Assembly (NCBI GenBank): GCA_021848045.1
Contig: JAJZNC010000037.1
Location: 1 to 34,165 of the forward strand
DNA from: an archaeon
Lineage (GTDB): Archaea; Thermoproteota; Nitrososphaeria; Nitrososphaerales; Gagatemarchaeaceae
Length of the DNA stretch: 34,165 nt
Reading direction: 5' to 3'
Part shown: positions 9,572 through 33,883 of the stretch, in pieces
How the letters are laid out: every line of letters begins with the position of its first letter
Position numbering within the stretch: the first letter of the stretch is position 1
Position numbers and translations under genes: made by a program
Notes under the pieces: generated by a model
What the model was told of the DNA's origin: nothing
The model's input: the letters and a program-made list of their open reading frames with translations, nothing else
Database searches by the model: none

Positions 9572-10090
9572 CTAGGACCCCTCCTTCTCGGCCGCTGGCT
9601 CGACCTTGGCCAGGGTCAGAGCGCCAAGCACAGAGGCCGCGAGCACCAGCGCGAGCACTTCCAGGGCTGGCGCGTAGGGCCCTGTGAGGAGCTGGCCTAT
9701 CTGCACGAAGCTCGGGGGGGTCGGCTGCTCTGTGGCCGTCGAGAGGCTCGAGGCGAGGAAGCTGGACACCAGGGAGGCTATCAGCGCGAGGACCGTGACC
9801 ACCGCCGCCGCCCTCGACGCCGGCCCCATCGAGTCGCCGAACCACCTCCCCTCCCTCACGAGCATCACCGTGAAGAGGACGAGCACGGCCACAGCGCCAA
9901 CATAGACCGTGATCTGGAAGGCCGCGACGAAGGGCGAGTCGAGGAGGAAGAAGAGGGACGCGACTCCGAAGAAGCTGGCGGCCAGGCCGACGGCTCCGTA
10001 GATTATCTCCCTCGCCTCCAGCGCCGAGACGGCACCGCCGATGGCGACTATCGAGAGCCCTGCGAAAGCGATGTCTGTGGCGTCAACCAT
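9572..10090 (-). CDS. nuoJ: Complex I subunit J (NuoJ)
   Basis: Membrane subunit of 172 residues with five predicted helices. The TM3 segment FQITVYVGAVAVLVLFTVML holds the conserved Tyr and the pi-bulge region of NuoJ/ND6. The gene begins 8 nt inside the 3' end of nuoI, which implies translational coupling, and is followed at once by nuoK. The C-terminal tail is charged and short. Confidence 0.94.
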   Translation of the reverse strand: MVDATDIAFAGLSIVAIGGAVSALEAREIIYGAVGLAASFFGVASLFFLLDSPFVAAFQITVYVGAVAVLVLFTVMLVREGRWFGDSMGPASRAAAVVTVLALIASLVSSFLASSLSTATEQPTPPSFVQIGQLLTGPYAPALEVLALVLAASVLGALTLAKVEPAAEKEGS

Positions 10091-12806
10091 GCGTCACTGT
10101 GCCTCGCTTCTTGTCGAACTTCACCTTGGCAGTCCCCAGCTCGTCGGGGGGCGGGAGCATCAGCATGTCGGGCGTGTACTTCAGGCTGGCCTTGTCGTAG
10201 GAGGAGAGTTCGTAGTCGTTGGTCATGGAGAGGGCGTCGAACGGGCACGCGTCCACGCAGTTCGAGGTCGCGAGCCCGAGCGGGCTGAAGGTGTGGTCAT
10301 CCTCAACGGTCACGTCCATGACCCTGTGGTCGGCGACCTCCTGAGTCTCGATCTCCCTGATCGGGAGGTAGACGTAGTTCTCCGAGATGTGGAACTCGTC
10401 CGCGTGCTCGGTCGGGCTGCGCTCGAGCTCCACCGACCAGAGCTCGGCGAGCTTCGCCGCCCACCTCCCGGAGACGTCTACGTGGTAGGCCTGAGGCTCG
10501 CCCCCCTGACCCCGCTCGACGGTGGCGACCACCCCGACCTTTGCCAGAAGCTGCTGGAGCTGGAAGGCCAGGACCTCCGACGCCGTCCTCATGCTGAGGC
10601 GGCTCCGACGCGCCCCGCCGGCGCCGTGCCCATCGCCCTGCCACTCTCCCTTCACGACCTGCAGGATCTTCTCGCGCTCCGCGAAGAATACCCAATCAGG
10701 GAGCCGCTTGTCGGGCGCCCCCCTCCCAAACTGGGAGAAGAAGGCCTCCGCTGCGGCGGAGTCCAACGCGAGGCGGACGCCGCTCTCTCCGTTCTTCCTA
10801 GAGACCCCCGGCTTGCCGAAGAACGTCCGGAGCAGGCCGCTGCAATCCGCCGCACCCCCTGCAGCTTCCTTCACAAAGTCGAACCTGACCGTCCTGGCGC
10901 CGCTGCAGGACCCTCCCGACAGGTAGAGCCCGACCAGGCGGAACAGCTCTGGGGAAGCATCGAGGACGATCCTCCTCTTCACCGGGCCGATCTTGTACAG
11001 GGGGACATCCTTCTCGTAGGTCTCCACGGGGCGCTCTTTCTTCACCACGGGGCTCACCAGGTAGTCGCCCGGCTTCAACTCGCCGGGCTTGTGGAACTTT
11101 AGCGGCTCCGTCGACCTCGAGAGCCCGCCATCCTTCCCTTTCGACATCCTTCTGGAGACGGCCATTATCGGGTGGTCGGCGGTGCAGACGAGGGGCTCGG
11201 GCTTCCCGTAGACGTGAATCCGATAGAGCGTCCCCGTGTAGCGCATGTCCCAGACCTTGGTCACAGGCTTGTACTCGCCGGTGTGCGTGAGGAGAAGGTC
11301 TCCCACCTTGACCTCTTTCATCGGTTTCAGGCCCGGATTGGTCACGACCGGCGTATCGGGGTCGATGCAGAGACCGCAGAAGACGCAGTTATGGACGGCG
11401 ATGTTCGCCGCGACGTAGCTGTTGTCTCCGTCGACCTCCAGGTTCCTCACTTCATAGTCGACCACGTCGGCGACGTCGATCTTCACGACCGGGGTCACGA
11501 CCATCCCGTCGCTGATGTGGACGGAGCTGCGGGAGAGCTCGTCGTTCTTGGCCGGGACCTCCACCAGTCGGCCCATCGCCTCGACGTAGGGCGTCTTCAC
11601 GGTGACCGAGTAGCACGTGCTCCGGTCATTCTGGCGCTGCGCGCCCATCGATGATAGTATCCCCAGCCGGCCGAGCATGTAGTGCGTCTGGATGGCCATC
11701 TCCCGTGACGCGGTACTGATCGTGAGGCAGTTCGAGCTGCCCTTGATGGGATGGGAGTCGTTCGAGAAGCGCCCGTCGCCCCAGAACTCGCCCCGAACGA
11801 CCTCCCCGATCCTTGCGCTCGGGAGCAAGACCATCCCCCACGGGAGCTTCTTGGTGTCTGCCGAGTGCCCGAACTGGGAGAAGAAGGCCGCCACCCTGGG
11901 AGAGTCGACGCACAGCTTCAGACCAGCCGAGTCCTCGTCGGGCTTGGCCGAGACCCCTGCGCCGAAGACCTTCGTCAGGCAGTCTGTGATGTCGGCCTTC
12001 AGGTCGTCATCGCGCTCGCGGACCGTGAACGAGACGCCGTGCCTCCCGGCCGTGCCTCTGGAAAGGTAGTAGCCGACGAGCCTCATCAGCTCAGGGGTGG
12101 TCGGAAGGGAGACGACCTCGGTCGTGGATGCCCCTCCGCGTCCAGCGGGATGGTAGAGCTCGTAGCTGTACTCGATCCTCTCCCTCGGCTCCTCTTCGAC
12201 GATGACCGGCCTCGTGAGATAGGTCCTCGGCGTGACCTCGCTCGCGTAGACCCAGGACACCCCCTTCTCACCGTAGACGAGGATGGGGTGGTCCTCCGTC
12301 GTGGTAAGGAGCTCGTAGTTGTCGAGCGTCTTGAACGTGTAGAGCTTGCCGGTGTACCTCCTGGCGAAAAGGCGCGTCACTTCCCTGAACTTTCCGGTGT
12401 GCGTCAGCACCTTGTCTCCGACACGGACCTCCGAGAGCGGCTTGGTCCCATCGATCGTGGTTATCGGTGTGGAGGGCGGGAGGCACCGGCCGTAGTCGAC
12501 TGCAGGCCAGAAGTTCTTCTTGTTCTGCGGCTTGTTCCGCACCATGGTCTGCATCTCGATGGCGACTGCGACCCCGTCGCATGCGATGGCGCAGAGCTGA
12601 CATCCCGTGCACTTTTCATCGCGGAGGAAGTGCCTTCCCTTGAACCCCGGGAGGCCGACGCCCGCCTTGGGGTCGAAGTGGTACCCCGGGCCCTGGAGGT
12701 CTAGCTTCTGGTCGGGGTAGCGCAGGGTCATCCTGGGCCTAAAGGCGTGCCTCACCCCGGACCAGCCGGAGATCCAGGCGCCCTTGATCGACGAGAGAAG
12801 CCCCAC
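10083..12806 (-). CDS. nuoI: Complex I subunit I (NuoI) precursor containing two inteins
   Basis: The peripheral ferredoxin-like subunit carries the N6a/N6b [4Fe-4S] clusters toward the quinone site. The precursor is 907 residues. Removal of two inteins (residues 108-473 and 480-849) leaves 171 residues, the usual size of NuoI. The first cluster motif is at C66, C69, C72 and C76, with Asp in place of the usual Pro after the last Cys. The second motif exists only after splicing: DYGR + CVFCGL + CVDACPFDAL. Ligands come from three separate exteins: C474 and C477, then C850 and C854. The precursor therefore cannot bind its second cluster until both inteins leave. Cluster context (nuoH upstream, nuoJ overlapping) confirms the gene. 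Confidence 0.95.
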   Translation of the reverse strand: MGLLSSIKGAWISGWSGVRHAFRPRMTLRYPDQKLDLQGPGYHFDPKAGVGLPGFKGRHFLRDEKCTGCQLCAIACDGVAVAIEMQTMVRNKPQNKKNFWPAVDYGRCLPPSTPITTIDGTKPLSEVRVGDKVLTHTGKFREVTRLFARRYTGKLYTFKTLDNYELLTTTEDHPILVYGEKGVSWVYASEVTPRTYLTRPVIVEEEPRERIEYSYELYHPAGRGGASTTEVVSLPTTPELMRLVGYYLSRGTAGRHGVSFTVRERDDDLKADITDCLTKVFGAGVSAKPDEDSAGLKLCVDSPRVAAFFSQFGHSADTKKLPWGMVLLPSARIGEVVRGEFWGDGRFSNDSHPIKGSSNCLTISTASREMAIQTHYMLGRLGILSSMGAQRQNDRSTCYSVTVKTPYVEAMGRLVEVPAKNDELSRSSVHISDGMVVTPVVKIDVADVVDYEVRNLEVDGDNSYVAANIAVHNCVFCGLCIDPDTPVVTNPGLKPMKEVKVGDLLLTHTGEYKPVTKVWDMRYTGTLYRIHVYGKPEPLVCTADHPIMAVSRRMSKGKDGGLSRSTEPLKFHKPGELKPGDYLVSPVVKKERPVETYEKDVPLYKIGPVKRRIVLDASPELFRLVGLYLSGGSCSGARTVRFDFVKEAAGGAADCSGLLRTFFGKPGVSRKNGESGVRLALDSAAAEAFFSQFGRGAPDKRLPDWVFFAEREKILQVVKGEWQGDGHGAGGARRSRLSMRTASEVLAFQLQQLLAKVGVVATVERGQGGEPQAYHVDVSGRWAAKLAELWSVELERSPTEHADEFHISENYVYLPIREIETQEVADHRVMDVTVEDDHTFSPLGLATSNCVDACPFDALSMTNDYELSSYDKASLKYTPDMLMLPPPDELGTAKVKFDKKRGTVTHG
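10260..11369 (-). other. Intein 2 in NuoI (370 aa)
   Basis: It begins at Cys480 (CIDPDTPVV), with VGDLLLTHTGEYKPV and a block B of CTADHPIMAV. Endonuclease-like motifs are LVGLYLSGG (about 624-632) and VVKGEWQGDG (about 717-726); the first lacks its catalytic acid. The C terminus reads VEDDHTFSPLGLATSN, ending at Asn849 before Cys850. The penultimate residue is Ser where most inteins have His, which can slow Asn cyclisation. Many segments match intein 1 (ELxRLVGxYLS, AAxAFFSQFG, GDG), so the two share a recent ancestor compared with inteins in general. It is inserted just before the third Cys of the cluster motif. Confidence 0.94.
11388..12485 (-). other. Intein 1 in NuoI (366 aa)
   Basis: The N-terminal block is Cys108-LPPSTPITTIDG, followed by VGDKVLTHTGK. 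Block B is TTTEDHPILV, with the TxxH pair. A degenerate LAGLIDADG endonuclease lies in the middle: LVGYYLSRG near 243-251, and VVRGEFWGDGRF near 336-347 with its GDG acid retained. The C-terminal blocks are YEVRNLEVDGDNSYVAANIAVHN ending at Asn473 (quoted only to locate it; key residues are His472 and Asn473), followed by Cys474 as the +1 nucleophile. All class 1 splicing residues (Cys1, TxxH, His-Asn, Cys+1) are present. The first endonuclease motif has Arg where the catalytic acid should be. It is inserted just before the first Cys of the second cluster motif. Confidence 0.95.
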
Positions 12807-24560: not shown

Positions 24561-26678
24561 TCAGGAGGGGGGCGGGAGCTGGACCTCGTCCACCGCGCGT
24601 AGCGGGTGGACCACCCTGACGCCGACCCCGTCGGCTATCTGCATCGAGCAGACGCTGCTCTCTGTCGCCACGAGCTTCCTCCCGCTCTCCCTGAAGAGCC
24701 TGAAGAGGTGGTCCCCGACCTCCATCGAGAGGTTGAACCCTAGGTCGCCGTGCTTCATCCCGAACGTCCCGGCCATCCCGCAGCAGGTCCCGTTCTCGAC
24801 CACCTGCACCTGGTACCCGGCCGCCTTCAGGAACGCCACGGCGGGCATCCCTCCCGAGACCGAGCGCTCGTGACACGGGATGTGGAACCCGATGGGCTCC
24901 CCCGTGGGGAACGAGGGCTTGAGGGAGAGGCGCCCGACGGCCCGTTCGACGAACCCGAAGAAGGGGAAGCTCGACCCCTTGGCCTTCTCGGCGAGGTCTC
25001 CGGGGGCCAGCCGGGGGTACACGTCCCTGAGCATGTAGACCGCGGTGGGCTCGGTGGAGACCACCGAGTATCCCTGGTCGAGGTACGGCCCCAGGCTCTC
25101 GAGGTTCTGCCTTGCCACCTTGGTGGCCTTGGCCACGTCGCCGTAGGAGATGTAGGGCATCCCGCTCCAGCGGAGGTCCGGCACCTCCACCCTGTAGCCG
25201 AGAGCGAGGAGGATCTTGACCGCCCTCACGCCCAGCTCGGGGTCGTTGTAGTCCGCGTAGATGTCGGGGAAGAAGACCACCTTCCCCGAGGCTCCCTTGC
25301 CGCTCCCCAGGGGCGCGAGGCGCTTCCTCAGCCTCCTCCTCGAGAAGCTGGGGAGGGTCCTCCGCTTGTCGACCCCGACCAGGGACTGCATGAGAGACCT
25401 CGAGACGCCGTTCCGGATGAGCCAGTTGGAGACGGGGGCGGTGGCGCTCGCGACCTTTGCGAGTGTCTCGGAGGACATGAAGAAGTCGTTGACGAGGAGC
25501 TGCCCGTTCTTCTGGTTGTCCTCCTCCTTCACCTTGGCGATCATCAGCGGGATGTTGATGTCGACCGGACAGATCTCCTTGCAGAGGCCGCAGGAGACGC
25601 ACAGCTGCGCGAAGGCCGCCTTGTCGAGCCCGTGGACCTCCGCGGTCCAGGGGATCCCAATCGGCCCCGGGTAGATGTACCCGAAGGTGTGACCTCCCGC
25701 CACCCCGTACGTGGGGCAGACGTTCATGCACGCGCCGCACCGGATGCAGTTGAGCGCGTCGGAGAAGAACGGGTCCTCCCTCATCTTGGACCTGCCGTTG
25801 TCGAGTATGACGACGTGATACTCCCTCCCCTCTGCGGAGCCTGCGAGGGGGCCGTGCTGTGTGATCAGCGAGACGTAGACGGTCATGTTCTGCCCTGTCG
25901 CGCTCGCGCTGTGCCCCTTCACCAGGTAGGTGGCGTCTTCCCACCGTGGGACTATCTTCTCCATCCCGATGACCACGATGTGCACCTTCGGGAGGGTGGT
26001 GACCAGCCTCCCGTTGCCCTCGTTGGTCTCGATGACGATCGAGCCCGTCTCGGCTATCCCTATGTTTGCCCCGGTGACCCCGATCTCCGCCGTCAGGAAG
26101 AGCCCCCGCAGGTACGACCGGACCGCCTTTAGGATCGCTTGGTCGTCCGGCGGCACCTCCTTGCCCACCCCCTTGGAGACGAGCTCGGCGATCTCCTTGA
26201 CAGACTTGTGGGCCGCCGGCATCACCAGGTGGACGGGGGTCTCGCAGGCGAGCTGCAGGACGAGCTCGCCGAGGTCGGTCTCGACAGAGCGGATGCCCGC
26301 CTTCTCCAGCTCCTGGGTGAACTCGATCTCGTCGGTGGTGAGCGACTTTGCCTTCACGATCAGCTTCGCCCCGACCCTCTTCGACACCTCCTCCACGTAC
26401 CCCAGGGCGTCGGCGCCGGTCTTGGCGAGGAAGACCTTCCCTCCGTTCCTTCGGACGCTCTCCGCGAACTCCTCGACCAGCCTCGGGTCTGCCGCCACCG
26501 AGGCTTTCAGCGCCCTGTTGGACTGCTTGATCGCGTGCATGTCCACCTGTCCCTTGGCCAGGAGGTTCGCCCTGTTGGCCCTTGCCTTGGTCATCGCCCC
26601 CCAGAACTTCTCCGAGGACTCCTTGTCCCTGAGCGAGGCCCTCAGCTTGTCCAGTAGCGCCTGTCTGCTCCCTGCCAA
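24561..26678 (-). CDS. LutB-type lactate-oxidation iron-sulfur protein fused to a CCG (LutA/GlpC-like) domain
   Basis: About 705 residues from a TTG at 26678, 4 nt after the LutC stop; the ATG at 26726 would overlap LutC and begins with low-complexity sequence. The order is an N-terminal LUD domain, two [4Fe-4S] motifs (CIRCGACMNVCP near 311, CVSCGLCKEICP near 360), then a two-part CCG region. The second CCG half is intact (IPCHERS, then NGTCCGMAGTFGMKH). The first half reads DIYADYNDPELG and LRWSGMPYISYG, with its cysteines lost. The protein likely passes electrons from L-lactate (or another 2-hydroxy acid) to a quinone pool. It is coupled to LutC. Confidence 0.84.
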   Translation of the reverse strand: MAGSRQALLDKLRASLRDKESSEKFWGAMTKARANRANLLAKGQVDMHAIKQSNRALKASVAADPRLVEEFAESVRRNGGKVFLAKTGADALGYVEEVSKRVGAKLIVKAKSLTTDEIEFTQELEKAGIRSVETDLGELVLQLACETPVHLVMPAAHKSVKEIAELVSKGVGKEVPPDDQAILKAVRSYLRGLFLTAEIGVTGANIGIAETGSIVIETNEGNGRLVTTLPKVHIVVIGMEKIVPRWEDATYLVKGHSASATGQNMTVYVSLITQHGPLAGSAEGREYHVVILDNGRSKMREDPFFSDALNCIRCGACMNVCPTYGVAGGHTFGYIYPGPIGIPWTAEVHGLDKAAFAQLCVSCGLCKEICPVDINIPLMIAKVKEEDNQKNGQLLVNDFFMSSETLAKVASATAPVSNWLIRNGVSRSLMQSLVGVDKRRTLPSFSRRRLRKRLAPLGSGKGASGKVVFFPDIYADYNDPELGVRAVKILLALGYRVEVPDLRWSGMPYISYGDVAKATKVARQNLESLGPYLDQGYSVVSTEPTAVYMLRDVYPRLAPGDLAEKAKGSSFPFFGFVERAVGRLSLKPSFPTGEPIGFHIPCHERSVSGGMPAVAFLKAAGYQVQVVENGTCCGMAGTFGMKHGDLGFNLSMEVGDHLFRLFRESGRKLVATESSVCSMQIADGVGVRVVHPLRAVDEVQLPPPS

Positions 26679-26682
26679 CCCG

Positions 26683-27288
26683 TCAGCTCCAGTCGAGGAT
26701 GACCGCGTGGACCGTGTGGGGCCCATGGACCCCGTAGAGGAGCCTCATCTCGATGTCCCCCGTCTTGCTCGGCCCCGAGATGAACGAGATTATCGGCTTC
26801 CGCTCAGGGGGCGCCTCCTTCACCAGCCTGTCCACGGTCGGCATCGCAGCGGCGAGGTCAGGCACCAGGCTGGCCGCCTCGAGGAGCGCTACGTGGACTA
26901 TCGGGAGGGAGGAGGCGAGCTTGAACGCGTCGTCGTAGACCACCTCCAGCAGCGCCCCCTCGAGCGCGACCCCGGCGACGGCCCAGGTCACCCCAGTGTC
27001 GGCCGCGTCGAGGACCTTCACCACCTCGGAGGCCGGCCTCCCCTGGAGGTCCTCCAGCGAGTCCGCCTTCACACCGCCGAGCGCGTCCTTCACCGCCCGT
27101 GCGTAGCGCGGCGGGATGCCCGCCACCACCACCGACCTGCTCTTCGACAGCAGCCCCTTGATGACCCGCGTCGTCTCGGCCTCGTCCTTCACGACGTGGC
27201 CCTCCACGTGGAGGTCCCGCAGGGAGGCCAGGAACCTCTCTACGACCCCCGCCCCCTGTTGGTCTCTGAGCTCCGTAGGTCTCTGCAT
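26683..27288 (-). CDS. LutC-type LUD domain protein
   Basis: A protein of 201 residues. ADTGVTWAVAGVALEGALLE is the LUD-domain glycine/Thr segment, and IISFISGPSKTGDIEMRLLYGVHGP near the C terminus (key residues GPSKTxDIE and GxHGP) is diagnostic for LutC/YkgG. These proteins are needed for lactate oxidation with LutA and LutB. It is the first gene of the pair, with a TATA box at 27311-27323 and an almost leaderless ATG. Confidence 0.84.
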   Translation of the reverse strand: MQRPTELRDQQGAGVVERFLASLRDLHVEGHVVKDEAETTRVIKGLLSKSRSVVVAGIPPRYARAVKDALGGVKADSLEDLQGRPASEVVKVLDAADTGVTWAVAGVALEGALLEVVYDDAFKLASSLPIVHVALLEAASLVPDLAAAMPTVDRLVKEAPPERKPIISFISGPSKTGDIEMRLLYGVHGPHTVHAVILDWS

Positions 27289-27992: not shown

Positions 27993-28670
27993 CTAGGCGG
28001 TGATCGACGGCCTTTCCTTCTTCGCCTTGTTCCAGTCGTCGAGGAAGCGCTTCAGCCCGATGTCGGTGAGAGGGTGCATGAGGAGCTTGTCCATCACCTC
28101 CGCGGGCATGGTTCCGATGTCGGCCCCCAGCTTCGCGGCCTGGAGGACGTGGATCGGGTGCCTTATGCTGGCGACCAGGACCTCCGCCTTGAACCTCTCG
28201 CCATACGCCCTCTTGATCGCGACGAGGTCTGCGATCATCCCCATCCCGTCCTGGCCTATGTCGTCCAGGCGCCCGATGAACGGGCTCAGGTACGACGCCC
28301 CAGCCTTGGCTGCGACGAGCGCCTGGTTGGCTGAGAAGATGAGCGTCATGTTGATCGGGATCCCCATCTTGCTCAGGGTCTTGGTGGCCTTCAGCCCCTC
28401 GGGGATCATCGGGATCTTGACCACCACGTTCTCCGCCCACGCCTTGTTGCGCTTGCCCTCGGAGACCATCCCCTCGTAGTCGGTGGCGGTGACCTCCGCG
28501 CTGACCGGGTTCGGGTAGACCTCCTTGCAGATGGCCTTTATCGTCTCCTCAAAGTCCGCGCCCTCCTTCACGATGAGGGAAGGGTTTGTGGTCACGCCGT
28601 CGACCAGCCCCATCGCGTTGTACTTCTTGATGGAGGCGAGGTTCGCAGTGTCCAGGTAGAACTTCATCAT
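27993..28670 (-). CDS. tal: Transaldolase (small TalC/MipB type)
   Basis: A TIM-barrel protein of 225 residues. It transfers a dihydroxyacetone unit between fructose-6-phosphate and erythrose-4-phosphate. [14 protein letters not shown] and [11 protein letters not shown] open the fold; the Schiff-base Lys is K85 in NVVVKIPM. The residue corresponding to Gln59 of fructose-6-phosphate aldolase is Glu here (VSAEVTATD), which favours transaldolase over aldolase activity. It is the last gene of the five-gene pentose-phosphate operon, 34 bp after the transketolase C half. Confidence 0.9.
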
Positions 28671-28704: not shown

Positions 28705-29670
28705 CTACCGGCGCTTCATCGCGATCGCCTGCTGAGCGGCCTCTTCGATGTGCGCGGCCGTGAGGCCGTACTTGTTCAGGAGCTCCTGGGCCTCTCCGCT
28801 CTCGCCGAAGGTGTCGTTGACCCCGACCCGCTTGAGGGGTATCGGGTACTGGTCGGTCAGGACCTCGGCGACGGCCGAGCCCATCCCGCCTATCACGTTG
28901 TGCTCCTCTGCGCTGACGGAGGCGCCGCAGAGCTTCGCGTACTTCACCACGGTCTCCTGGTCGATCGGCTTTACGGTGTGGACGTCTATGACGCTGGCCT
29001 TTACGCCCTTCTTCCCGAGGGACTCGGCGGCCCTCATGGCCTCAGGGACCATGATCCCGCACGCGAAGAGCGCCACGTCGCTGCCGCCGTCCATGACGAC
29101 GTTGGCCTTGCCAAGCTTGTACTCGAACCCGTTCTCGTAGACTATTGGGGTGTTCGAGCCCTTGATCACCCCCCTCGTTATCCTCACGTAGAAGGGCCCC
29201 GGTATCTCGGCTATGCCCTTGATGATGCCCTTGACGGCGACGGCGTCCGCCGGCACGACGACCCTCATGTGTGGTACGGCCCTCATCAGGGCAAGGTCCT
29301 CCACCTGCTCGTGCGAGCCTCCGTCAGGGCCAACTGTGATCCCCGCGTGAGAGCAGACCAGCTTGACGTCAAGGTCTGCGTAGCAGAGCATGTTACGGAT
29401 CTGGTCGACGCACTTGCCAGGCACGAATATCGCGTATGTCCCCGCGAAGGCCACCTTCCCCCCGAACGCCAGCCCTGCCGCGACCCCGACCAGGTTCTGC
29501 TCGGCGATCCCGAGGTTGAAGAACCGCTCGGGGTACTTTTGTCCGAACATCCCGGACTTCATCGAGTCGGTGGTGTCAGCCCCCAGGACCACCACCTTCT
29601 GGTTGTTCGCCCCGAGCTCGACCAGAGCCTCGCCGTAGGCGTTCCGCATCGCACCCATCTTCTCTAGCAT
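28705..29670 (-). CDS. Transketolase, C-terminal subunit
   Basis: 321 residues covering the pyrimidine-binding and C-terminal domains of transketolase. The catalytic Glu is in [11 protein letters not shown] (about 53-63); [20 protein letters not shown] follows, with conserved His. Many archaea split transketolase into two genes. This half must pair with the product of 30396-31220. It starts with ATG 1 nt after the epimerase TGA. Confusion with DXS or a pyruvate dehydrogenase beta subunit is possible in principle, but the operon supports transketolase. Confidence 0.92.
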
Positions 29671-29671
29671 C

Positions 29672-30394
29672 TCAAATCGCCCTCGCTCCGGCTTCCTGCC
29701 TAGCCTTTTCGCGGAGGAGCCCGACAGCCCCTATCGGGTCCGGCTTGTAGTACACGCCCGCCCCTGCGACGAGCACGTTCCCGCCGCGCTTCACCACGTT
29801 GCCGAGCGTCTCCAGCTCCACGCCACCGTCTATCTCGATATCTATCGGGAGGCCCCTGTCGTTCAGCATCTGGGTGATCCTCTCGAGCTTGGGCATCACC
29901 GCCATTATCATGCTCTGGCCGCTGAACCCGGGGTTGACGGTCATCACGCAGAGTGTGTCGAGCTTGTCGAGACGCTTCTCGACCCATCCGGGCATCTCGG
30001 TGGAGGGCTTTAGCGCCAGCCCCATGACCTTGCCCTGGGCGTGGACCTTCGAATAGATAGCGTCGAACCTCTCCCCCGTGAGCGCCTCCGCGTGGAAGCA
30101 GAAGAGGTCGGAGCCGGCGTCGAGGAACTTGTCCACGAACTTCTCGGGCTCGTCTATCATGAGGTGGGTGTCGAACTTCATGTCCGTCCGCTTCCTGAGG
30201 GCCTTTACCGTGCCCGGCCCGAAGGTGATGTTCGGCGCGAAGTGCCCGTCGATCACGTCTAGGTGGACCTGGTCGGCACCCCCCTTTACGGCGACCTCGA
30301 GCGCGGAGGCGAAGTTCGCCTGGTCCCCACCGAGGATGGAAGGGGCGATCTTGATCTTCCTCTTGACCTCAGCGAGGGGCGCAGACTTTTCCAA
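29672..30394 (-). CDS. rpe: Ribulose-phosphate 3-epimerase
   Basis: A TIM-barrel enzyme of 240 residues that interconverts ribulose-5-phosphate and xylulose-5-phosphate. Metal-binding and catalytic motifs are seen: APSILGGD, HLDVIDGHFAPNITFGP, DTHLMI, VNPGFSGQ and IEIDGGV. The start is TTG, one base after the stop of the transketolase N half. Its place between the two transketolase genes fits a rearrangement pathway that feeds ribulose-5-phosphate. Confidence 0.93.
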   Translation of the reverse strand: MEKSAPLAEVKRKIKIAPSILGGDQANFASALEVAVKGGADQVHLDVIDGHFAPNITFGPGTVKALRKRTDMKFDTHLMIDEPEKFVDKFLDAGSDLFCFHAEALTGERFDAIYSKVHAQGKVMGLALKPSTEMPGWVEKRLDKLDTLCVMTVNPGFSGQSMIMAVMPKLERITQMLNDRGLPIDIEIDGGVELETLGNVVKRGGNVLVAGAGVYYKPDPIGAVGLLREKARQEAGARAI

Positions 30395-30395
30395 C

Positions 30396-31220
30396 CTACT
30401 TTAGCTCCTTGTAGATGTCTTCCATCTTCTCCTTGGTCGGCGGGGTCCCGTGATAGGTCGGAGACCACTCCATGAACGAGATCCCCTTGCCCTTCACCGT
30501 GTGGGCGATGATCATCGTGGGCCTGTTCTTGACCATCTCGGCTGTGTCGAACGCCTCGATGAGCTGGAGGTAGTCATAGCCGTCCACCTCGATCACATTC
30601 CAGTTGAAGGCGCGCCATTTTGCGGCCAGCGGTTCGAGCGGCATTATCTGCTCCGTCAGCCCATCCTGCTGGATTCCGTTCCTGTCGATCATGCCAACGA
30701 GGTTGTCGAGCTTGAACTTGGACGCCGACATCGCCGCCTCCCAGACCTCCCCTTCGCCCTGCTCGCCGTCGCCCATCAGCACGTAGGTCCTCGTCGGCCT
30801 GCCATCGAGCCTGGCGGCGAGCGCCTGGCCGACGCCGACGGAGAGCCCGATCCCCTCAGAGCCAGCGGGCATCTCGACGCCCGGTATGTCCATGTCGGGA
30901 TGCCCCTGGAGGAGCGCGCCGAGCTTCCGTAGGGACTTTAGTTCGGAGAGCGGGAAATAGCCCGCCTGGGCGAGTATCGAGTAGAGCAGTGGCGCCCCGT
31001 GGCCCTTGCTTAGGATGAACCGGTCCCGATCAGCCCACTTTGGGTTCTTGGGGTCGTGCCTGAGCTTGTAGAAGTAGAGCGTCACCAGCAGCTCGACCGC
31101 CGAGAGCGAGCCCCCGGGGTGCCCCGAACCGGCCTCCGCGAGCGTCTCCAGGATTATCTTCCTGGTGTTCCTCGCCAGCTCCTGAAGCCTGGCGATCTCC
31201 TGCGATGTTGTCATGCCCAT
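30396..31220 (-). CDS. Transketolase, N-terminal subunit
   Basis: 274 residues forming the thiamine-diphosphate-binding half. GSGHPGGSLSAVE and SKGHGAPLLYS carry the substrate/TPP histidines. The TPP-Mg motif is GDGEQGEGEVWEA (about 150-162), ending at MIDRN. The C-terminal HTVKGKGI is typical of transketolase. It lies 3 bp after the kinase stop, which suggests co-translation. Confidence 0.93.
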   Translation of the reverse strand: MGMTTSQEIARLQELARNTRKIILETLAEAGSGHPGGSLSAVELLVTLYFYKLRHDPKNPKWADRDRFILSKGHGAPLLYSILAQAGYFPLSELKSLRKLGALLQGHPDMDIPGVEMPAGSEGIGLSVGVGQALAARLDGRPTRTYVLMGDGEQGEGEVWEAAMSASKFKLDNLVGMIDRNGIQQDGLTEQIMPLEPLAAKWRAFNWNVIEVDGYDYLQLIEAFDTAEMVKNRPTMIIAHTVKGKGISFMEWSPTYHGTPPTKEKMEDIYKELK

Positions 31221-31223
31221 ACT

Positions 31224-32270
31224 CTAACGCCTCACCGGCATCTGGGTGACCCGGTTCAGGAAGTCCCCCATCAGCTCTACGCGCTTCTCGAGGTCCTGGA
31301 TCGTCAGCGTCGACGTCCTGGGCTTTTCGCTCCGGACGGTCCCTGCGATGTTGCTGAGGCACGCAGCCTCCGAGATCGAGCCGCCCGCCGCCACGGCGAG
31401 GGAGAAGACCCCGGTCATCGCGTCCCGCACGCCCACCCTGTTGAAGAAGCTCTTCCTTCCGAAGGGCAACGGTAGCGTCGTGATCTGCTCGCGGTCGAAC
31501 ACCGTCATCCCTTCCTCTCCTCGGGTTATCACAATGCCCTTGCAGTCGAGCCGGCCCATGAGGTTCACGCCCATGTTCCTCAGGCTTGTCTCGTTGACCA
31601 TGGCCATCTGGGTGGCGTGCGTCGCCTCTCCCAGGTTCGACTTTACGTAGGTCACGCCGGAGTAGTCCATGTAGTGCCTGTCTTTGGGCTGGGCGACCAC
31701 GATCTTCCCGGCCTTTCTGGCAGACGCGACAATGGAGCTTATCAAAGAGGAGGTGATCGCGCCCCTGTCGTAGTCAGAGAAGACCACCGTGTCCACACCA
31801 GGGATCTTGCTCTCCGCGGAGGCCGCGAGGGTCTTGGTCACAGCGAGCTGGACCTCCTTCCTGACCTCCTGGTCGATGCGAAGGTAGTGGAGCCTGTTCA
31901 CCATGATCCACGTCCTCAACGAGGTCGGGCGGGACTTGTCCTGGACTATGCCCTCTGTCGTCACCCCGTTCCTCCCCAGGTCTTCCTTCAGCCAGACCCC
32001 ATAGTTGTCGTCCCCCACAGTGCCGATGACGGAGACCATCCCGCCTAGCGAGGCCACCTCGTTCGCCAGGTTGGCCGCCCCGCCCGGGAGAAGGGTCTCT
32101 CCGACGTAGTCGCCCGCAGGGACAGGGGCTTCGCGCGCGAGCTTCCTGGCCGAGACCTCGACGAACCTGCTTACCAGAAAGTCGCCGACGACCAGCATGC
32201 GCTTGCCCTGGAACTTTTTGAGGAGCGCTGCCAAGCCTTCGACGGATAGATTCGGCAACCCCTGAACCAC
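31224..32270 (-). CDS. PfkB-family sugar kinase, HldE/RfaE-like
   Basis: 348 residues from GTG 32270. The N-terminal half closely follows heptose-7-phosphate kinases: LAREAPVPAGDYVGETLLPG, GGAANLANEVASLGG (about 63-77), IGTVGDDNYG, and RPTSLRTWI with LHYLRIDQE. The nucleotidyltransferase domain of HldE is absent. At the PfkB signature, where families have GAGD, this protein reads GVRD (280-283): the catalytic Asp283 stays, but the anion-hole Gly is Arg. Candidate substrates are ribulose-5-phosphate, ribose-1-phosphate or sedoheptulose/heptose-7-phosphate; the sequence does not decide. It heads the operon with transketolase, epimerase and transaldolase. Confidence 0.82.
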   Translation of the reverse strand: MVQGLPNLSVEGLAALLKKFQGKRMLVVGDFLVSRFVEVSARKLAREAPVPAGDYVGETLLPGGAANLANEVASLGGMVSVIGTVGDDNYGVWLKEDLGRNGVTTEGIVQDKSRPTSLRTWIMVNRLHYLRIDQEVRKEVQLAVTKTLAASAESKIPGVDTVVFSDYDRGAITSSLISSIVASARKAGKIVVAQPKDRHYMDYSGVTYVKSNLGEATHATQMAMVNETSLRNMGVNLMGRLDCKGIVITRGEEGMTVFDREQITTLPLPFGRKSFFNRVGVRDAMTGVFSLAVAAGGSISEAACLSNIAGTVRSEKPRTSTLTIQDLEKRVELMGDFLNRVTQMPVRR

Positions 32271-32452: not shown

Positions 32453-33883
32453 ATGACAAACACCGAAGCAACGGTAGAAAGGAGGTGGAGCGCCCCTAGC
32501 GTAGAGCACGACAGGGGAGACATATTCTCCACGACCCCCGACAAGGTTGACGTCGACAGGAACGTACTGGCGACCTTCTTCATCACTTGCGACCCCAGGG
32601 TCACGATCGACCAGGCGGGGGTCATCATCGCCGCCGAGCAGTCCGTCGGGACATTCACCGACGTCTCGACAGCGACCGAGCTCTCGACCAAGACCGCGGC
32701 CAAGCTATACTCGTGGAAGTACGAAGACCCCTCCGGCTCGATGAAGCACTCCGGGTGGGTCAAGGTCGCCTTCCCGACTTACCTTCTCGACATGGACAAC
32801 AGGGGCATCCCCGACCTGTTCACGTTCGTGACCGGCAACTGGATGGGTTTCACCCCTATCCCCAACTGCAAATGGATCGATTTCACCCTCCCCAAGAGCG
32901 TCCTGAAGCTCTTCAAGGGTCCGAAGTTCGGAGTCGAGGGCCTCAGGGAGATCGTCGGCACCAAGAAGAGCAGGCGACCCCACGTCGGACTGACGATCAA
33001 GCCCAAGATGGGCGTGACCGACGCGGGAGCCGCCCAGCAGTTCTACGAGGGGGCTCTCGGAGGCGTCGACACGTTCAAGGACGACGAGACCTACTTCAAC
33101 CAGTGGTGCTCGCCCCTCCTCGACCGCGTCTCCAAGGTGTACGAGGCGCTCGACAAGGCCAAGTCCGAGGGGGCGCACCCTGAAGGCGACTACATGTACG
33201 CCCCGCAGGTTACGGTGGACTCGGAAAAGTCCCTCGAGGTCGCGGACAAGATGATCGCCCACGGCGCAAGGGGGCTCATGCTCAACATCATGGCTACCTG
33301 GTACCCGGCGCTCAGGGCCCTCGCCGAGGACCCCAGCATCAACGTCCCCATCCACCTCCACAGGGCGTCCCACGCGTCTGTGACCCGCCACCCGAGGCAC
33401 GGCATCAGCTTCAAGGTCATCGCAGGGCTCGGCAGGATAGCCGGCGGCGACATGATCCACGTCGGGACGGCCAGGGGGAAGCTCGGCGACGCGATAAAGT
33501 TCGTCGAGATCCCCGAGGTGATCGACGAGATACAGAGGCCGATGGACCACATCGCCCCGATGATGGGCATCTCGTCAGGAGGCCTCACGGCGCAGAACTA
33601 CCACTACTCGCTCGACCTGATGGGCCTGGACATCCAGCTCCAGAACGGAGGAGCGGTGCACGGGCACCCGTGGGGGACCAAGGGCGGGGCGACGGCTGCA
33701 AGGCAGGCCGTCGAGGCGTACATGAAGAAGATCCCGGTCGACGAGTACGCAAAGACCCACCCCGAGCTGGGAGCCTCACTCCAGTTCTTCGGGCAAAAGT
33801 ACGCGGTAGCCTCCGCGATGGCCGCCGTCCCCGAGCTCGGGAAGAGCGAGAGCGACTATAGGAAGATGTTCCGCTCGGAGTAA
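32453..33883 (+). CDS. rbcL: Ribulose-bisphosphate carboxylase large subunit, form III-like
   Basis: 476 residues. Active-site positions are all present by alignment to plant numbering: E62 (E60), N129 (N123), K183 and K185 in TIKPKMG (K175, K177), K209-D211-E212 in FKDDE (carbamate site), H303-R304 (H294, R295), H336 (H327), loop-6 K343 in GTARGKLG (K334), S375 in SSGG (S379), and GGAVHGHPWG for phosphate. It is therefore a likely active carboxylase rather than a form IV protein. The N terminus is extended compared with typical archaeal form III (~430-445 residues), and the metal-site neighbourhood (DTFKDDETYFNQW) is divergent. A small Cys-rich gene follows after 12 bp. Confidence 0.92.
   Translation: MTNTEATVERRWSAPSVEHDRGDIFSTTPDKVDVDRNVLATFFITCDPRVTIDQAGVIIAAEQSVGTFTDVSTATELSTKTAAKLYSWKYEDPSGSMKHSGWVKVAFPTYLLDMDNRGIPDLFTFVTGNWMGFTPIPNCKWIDFTLPKSVLKLFKGPKFGVEGLREIVGTKKSRRPHVGLTIKPKMGVTDAGAAQQFYEGALGGVDTFKDDETYFNQWCSPLLDRVSKVYEALDKAKSEGAHPEGDYMYAPQVTVDSEKSLEVADKMIAHGARGLMLNIMATWYPALRALAEDPSINVPIHLHRASHASVTRHPRHGISFKVIAGLGRIAGGDMIHVGTARGKLGDAIKFVEIPEVIDEIQRPMDHIAPMMGISSGGLTAQNYHYSLDLMGLDIQLQNGGAVHGHPWGTKGGATAARQAVEAYMKKIPVDEYAKTHPELGASLQFFGQKYAVASAMAAVPELGKSESDYRKMFRSE

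Follow-up and report, generated by a model that had tools for sequence, protein, structure and literature searches.

Near one end of the window (the whole 34,165-nucleotide stretch of DNA analysed here) lies an operon whose first gene encodes an HldE-like protein of the PfkB kinase family, followed by genes for the two halves of a split transketolase (TktN and TktC), a ribulose-phosphate 3-epimerase (RPE) and a transaldolase-like protein (TAL) (Table 1). The kinase gene and a gene for a RuBisCO large subunit (rbcL) are divergently oriented. Just past TAL, at 24561-27288 on the minus strand, an LdhH/LutB-like Fe-S protein is encoded beside a LutC-like protein; the two may form a pair for lactate oxidation. 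Elsewhere in the window (10083-12806, minus strand), a NuoI-like open reading frame of 907 aa has two intein-like insertions that break its 4Fe-4S motifs; a complex I subunit reading frame in a related genome, G007 (L045:1-1476), also carries an intein-like insertion.

Table 1 Genes of the kinase-transketolase locus and the adjoining RuBisCO gene
Feature	Coordinates	Strand	Evidence
HldE-like PfkB protein with G280-V281-R282-D283, operon gene 1	31224..32270	-	ORF; PfkB 73 bits; rfaE_dom_I 228 bits; AF2 model
TktN, transketolase N-terminal half	30396..31220	-	Pfam Transketolase_N 187 bits; synteny
Ribulose-phosphate 3-epimerase (RPE)	29672..30394	-	PF00834 197 bits; synteny
TktC, transketolase C-terminal half	28705..29670	-	PF02779/PF02780; synteny
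Transaldolase / F6P-aldolase family protein (TAL), final operon gene	27993..28670	-	PF00923 195 bits; TIGR00875 above cut-off
Divergent form-III-like RuBisCO large subunit	32453..33883	+	PF00016 165 bits; active-site motifs retained in PDB alignment

The kinase is a protein of 348 aa with a GTG start. PfkB (PF00294) is its sole Pfam match, well above the curated cut-off of 25.8 bits. Among NCBIfam models it scores best with the HldE/RfaE kinase domain (TIGR02198), falling below the cut-off of 345 bits. The N-terminal region contains the HldE-type motifs GD, REAPVP, GGAAN and LRIDxE. The domain search detected no nucleotidyltransferase domain in the protein, and TktN begins 3 bases past the kinase stop codon. 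The AF2 model (pLDDT 90, pTM 0.90) has HldA as its top PDB fold match (TM 0.81/0.91), and Burkholderia HldA is the nearest solved protein in both sequence and fold. The likeness to HldE and HldA includes the EAPVP lid motif, the sugar-side residues, the NxxE motif and the catalytic Asp. Literature searches found no published description of this kinase.

Alignment to ten HldE/HldA kinases places R282 at Gly263 and D283 at the catalytic Asp264 of E. coli HldE. Thus, the first-pass annotation, which had described HldE-like N-terminal motifs, no nucleotidyltransferase domain and an Arg in place of the anion-hole Gly, was correct, as the reading frame and profile searches also confirmed. N212 and E215 correspond to the catalytic N195 and E198 of the E. 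coli enzyme. Across 59 distinct kinase sequences, all carried G[VIL]RD rather than the G/A-x-G-D anion-hole motif of PfkB proteins (hereafter GxRD kinases), and R282, D283, E215, Q194, H199, R131 and D133 were invariant. The invariance of R282 and D283 excludes chance or sequencing error as the origin of the Arg. K196 was kept in 57 of the 59, and N212 was replaced by Thr in 5. Among the positions tabulated, GxRD kinases retained the catalytic and sugar-side residues that are invariant in HldE except at E. coli D177 (Q), D182 (H), A262 (V/I/L) and G263 (R), the changes at D177, D182 and G263 being themselves invariant; Gln194 and His199 are clade-specific. Judging from these alignments, an HldE-like kinase of soil archaea has a fixed Arg where almost all relatives carry Gly.

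Compared with the two nearest genomes, the kinase had dN/dS values of 0.056 and 0.064, similar to those of RPE and TktC. Such low values indicate purifying selection as in the neighbouring genes and, together with the invariance of R282, D283 and E215, make decay unlikely. The earlier proposal that Arg282 might mark a loss of activity is therefore hard to sustain as simple decay, although the protein may have a functional, non-kinase role. In the AF2 model, a helix starts at residue 281, which would place R282 in the first turn of the anion-hole helix. We know of no active PfkB kinase with an Arg at this position.

A loose search detected homologues of the kinase in 42 of the 61 related genomes, although a few of these hits are weak and belong to other PfkB proteins; the kinase is also present at 55 named GTDB loci. 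Carriers include Gagatemarchaeaceae (group I.1c Thaumarchaeota), marine Thaumarchaeota (SAT137), Nitrosocaldus and soil 'Bathyarchaeota BA'. In a sample of 400 genomes of the class, 43 encoded a GxRD kinase (E <= 1e-100, plus one contig-edge fragment). GxRD sequences formed a single branch (SH-aLRT 100) apart from HldE and from more distant HldE-like relatives, the latter having long branches whose exact placement is uncertain. The window kinase thus belongs to a monophyletic group of archaeal proteins that branched off from the HldE kinase-domain (heptose-7-phosphate kinase) part of PfkB. A GAGD paralogue on a contig of a marine thaumarchaeal MAG (G054:C46, locus L178) was dropped as an in-clade control, as its neighbouring genes look bacterial (SmpB-, thioredoxin- and HldE-like) and it is probably contamination.

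TktN follows the kinase at every homologous locus with long enough flanks and, in loci reaching far enough, is normally followed by RPE, TktC and, in most, TAL. In Gagatemarchaeaceae, marine lineages that do not oxidise ammonia, Nitrosocaldus and related soil archaea, the kinase heads this kinase-TktN-RPE-TktC-TAL operon, which is conserved independently of RuBisCO. Three relatives (G043, G045 and G057), which we infer to be ammonia oxidisers, have TktN, TktC and TAL without the kinase, which, although tied to the pathway, is therefore not essential to it. In one of these, G043 (L136:7334-8995, minus strand), RPE is fused to TktN, and longer TktN frames suggest the same fusion in the other two. 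We rejected a bypass of transaldolase, or the filling of a gap left by it, as the role of the kinase because TAL was found in almost every genome with the kinase; in G011, where the operon contig is cut short, only a TAL fragment was seen.

The proximity of rbcL raises the question of whether the kinase supplies RuBisCO with ribulose-1,5-bisphosphate (RuBP) or ribose-1,5-bisphosphate (R15P), as the first-pass annotation had proposed; it would then be an analogue of phosphoribulokinase or of a ribose-1- or ribose-5-phosphate kinase. HldE-type anomeric phosphorylation of ribose-5-phosphate would yield R15P, rbcL adjoins the kinase in both the window and G007, and a search for phosphoribulokinase (PF00485) that gave matches in 11 of 14 control genomes gave none in the window's genome. 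However, RuBisCO, present in 53 of the 400 genomes, was found in 5 of 43 genomes with the kinase and 48 of 357 without it (Fisher p = 1), and co-occurrence in both the 61- and the 400-genome sets led us to reject a partnership between the two. The orientation also differs, as in G007 rbcL lies upstream of the kinase in the same direction. Moreover, each of the 8 genomes with RuBisCO in the 61-genome set encodes its own relative of R15P isomerase (in G051 only a fragment, beside rbcL). The window's genome encodes this isomerase on another contig (TIGR00511, 376 bits, above cut-off), adjoining PRPP synthase; in G007 the same pair precedes rbcL; and a published survey found rbcL, R15P isomerase and PRPP synthase adjacent in three Gagatemarchaeaceae genomes (PMC10640624). 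As the isomerase itself yields RuBP, no additional kinase is required to provide it.

The kinase itself also fits such a role poorly. It lacks membership of the phosphoribulokinase family, matching PfkB only. The archaeal ATP- or ADP-dependent ribose-1-phosphate kinases (NF053626, TK2029; PMC9700705) are likewise ribokinase/PfkB-superfamily proteins of sugar-phosphate metabolism, but those known accompany R15P isomerase, whereas GxRD kinases occur in many genomes without a RuBisCO-type R15P isomerase, and the window kinase scored 31.9 bits against a cut-off of 330 for NF053626. We consider a role in RuBisCO supply highly improbable. The other role that the first-pass annotation had put forward, on a seven-carbon sugar phosphate, is the likelier one given the order of the genes and the HldE sugar-site residues that the protein retains.

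An ordinary HldE role, phosphorylating heptose-7-phosphate on the way to NDP-heptose glycans, would agree with HldE being the closest family and with the presence of heptose-type genes in the window's genome. These genes, on contig C56 (L175, 1-7956), encode HddC-like, HddA-like GHMP kinase and GmhA-like proteins and a second transaldolase, all scoring below curated cut-offs. A heptose-type cluster thus does exist elsewhere in the genome, but it does not use the GxRD kinase, as the refuting case of the first-pass annotation would require; the cluster excludes it and has its own HddA-like GHMP kinase instead. GmhA, for which a genome search had been suggested, has a GmhA-like counterpart in the C56 protein, but complete genomes that carry the kinase, G013, G017 and G037 among them, lack it. 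Both observations make the ordinary HldE role unlikely, and we rejected an NDP-heptose pathway running through the GxRD kinase. GxRD kinases further differ from HldE in having lost GAGD, falling short of the TIGR02198 cut-off, lacking a fused nucleotidyltransferase domain and an obligate GmhA/GmhB partner, and being fixed in a transketolase operon. Taken with the points in its favour, this role is very unlikely.

Distant HldE-like relatives nevertheless occur among heptose genes. Family f74 is found in RPE-kinase-TktN-TktC-HddC-HddA-GmhA-GmhB-TAL clusters, f73, in the part of it covered, in similar ones, and G441 has an HldE-like kinase-TAL-GmhB-GmhA-HddA cluster. Archaeal proteins of this kind (L195, L197-L201 and L210) resemble GxRD kinases in scoring about 185-230 bits against rfaE_dom_I where scored and in lying beside TAL and often transketolase genes. 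They differ in falling outside the GxRD clade, in carrying G[IVM]GD, GIGE or SVGE and in having lost several HldE-invariant residues, nearly all of which the GxRD clade keeps; some in clusters with sedoheptulose-7-phosphate (S7P) genes have lost NxxE or DPK. The metabolite common to the neighbourhoods of these relatives is S7P, which points to it as the relevant sugar phosphate. Two of the proteins, at L199:4328-5311 (minus strand) and L200:5061-6008 (plus strand), have GIGE/SVGE, in which the catalytic Asp is replaced by Glu, and come from probable ammonia oxidisers; the L199 protein sits in a TAL-GmhB-GmhA-HddA cluster. A different archaeal family has another HldE-like kinase, with GAGD, adjoining a HAD-like phosphatase (L147:4736-6633 and L148:4284-6160).

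Some PfkB enzymes are 6-phosphofructokinases, and the kinase might instead phosphorylate fructose-6-phosphate, a metabolite of both transketolase and transaldolase, to fill a missing glycolytic step in these archaea. Such a role would suit the Gagatemarchaeaceae, which are reported to lack phosphofructokinase (PMC10640624). However, the score of 24 bits lies far below the cut-off of 353 for the NCBIfam 6-phosphofructokinase II model, sequence and fold side with HldA rather than Pfk-2, and the kinase is also present in Nitrosocaldus, making this an improbable explanation. Nitrosocaldus is a lineage of autotrophic ammonia oxidisers.

Most likely, then, the kinase acts on a sugar phosphate such as S7P and not as a maker of substrate for RuBisCO. 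The reading that we favour, at a probability of roughly 45%, is that GxRD kinases are active sugar-phosphate kinases with an altered phosphate site, S7P being the best guess at a substrate from the gene neighbourhood. It is the most economical reading because the base, the metal-site glutamate and the sugar-side residues are kept. In the mechanism that we propose, the substrate would be bound by the HldE-type sugar site (D30, GG63-64, N67, R131, D133, D166 and K196), D283 would serve as the catalytic base and the metal-phosphate would be held by N212/E215. The γ-phosphate of ATP is bound in human ketohexokinase by the GAGD motif, whose second Gly has its amide (Gly257 N) at the β-γ bridge (PMC2651755). 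Because Arg282 replaces this Gly, by analogy its side chain probably enters the phosphate-transfer site and acts there together with Gln194 and His199. The eroded kinase motifs (GIGE, SVGE and a lost NxxE) of relatives in heptose clusters indicate that the lineage tolerates loss of classical activity and so weigh against an active kinase, as do the changes to N212 and the ATP motif in Nitrosocaldus described below.

The main rival is a non-catalytic regulator, an HldE-derived pseudokinase that would bind S7P, or another sugar phosphate of the pathway, and control or scaffold the split transketolase, with Arg282 locking the bound phosphate rather than assisting its transfer. The anion-hole Gly is lost in every GxRD member, the kinase and split TktN travel together, and some of the HldE-like relatives with varied losses of kinase signatures beside S7P genes belong to clusters that already contain an HddA-like kinase. 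There is also precedent for a structural or regulatory role in plant FLN1/FLN2, PfkB proteins without detectable kinase activity (PMC5405513), but these belong to another branch, and the catalytic Asp is invariant in GxRD kinases. A binder would need neither Asp283 nor the metal-site Glu215, both universally conserved. Moreover, Asn212 and the TRGxxG ATP motif are retained in all GxRD kinases other than those of Nitrosocaldus, in which N212 is Thr and the ATP motif is shortened. A regulator therefore seems rather unlikely, although less so than the other alternatives considered.

Tentatively, GxRD kinases may represent a novel PfkB subfamily in which a fixed Arg has taken the place of the near-universal anion-hole Gly. 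Its members would be S7P kinases or sensors that control or redirect flux through a pentose phosphate pathway of archaea whose transketolase is split. Our analysis places a widespread, uncharacterized kinase, carried by archaea that are abundant in soil and sea, in the pentose phosphate pathway instead of in a possible supporting role for RuBisCO, and makes it a stringent test case for whether Arg in the anion hole is compatible with PfkB catalysis. Should the kinase prove inactive, it would represent a kind of PfkB regulator rarely seen in prokaryotes; should it phosphorylate S7P, the central carbon metabolism of archaea would gain a step not recorded before.
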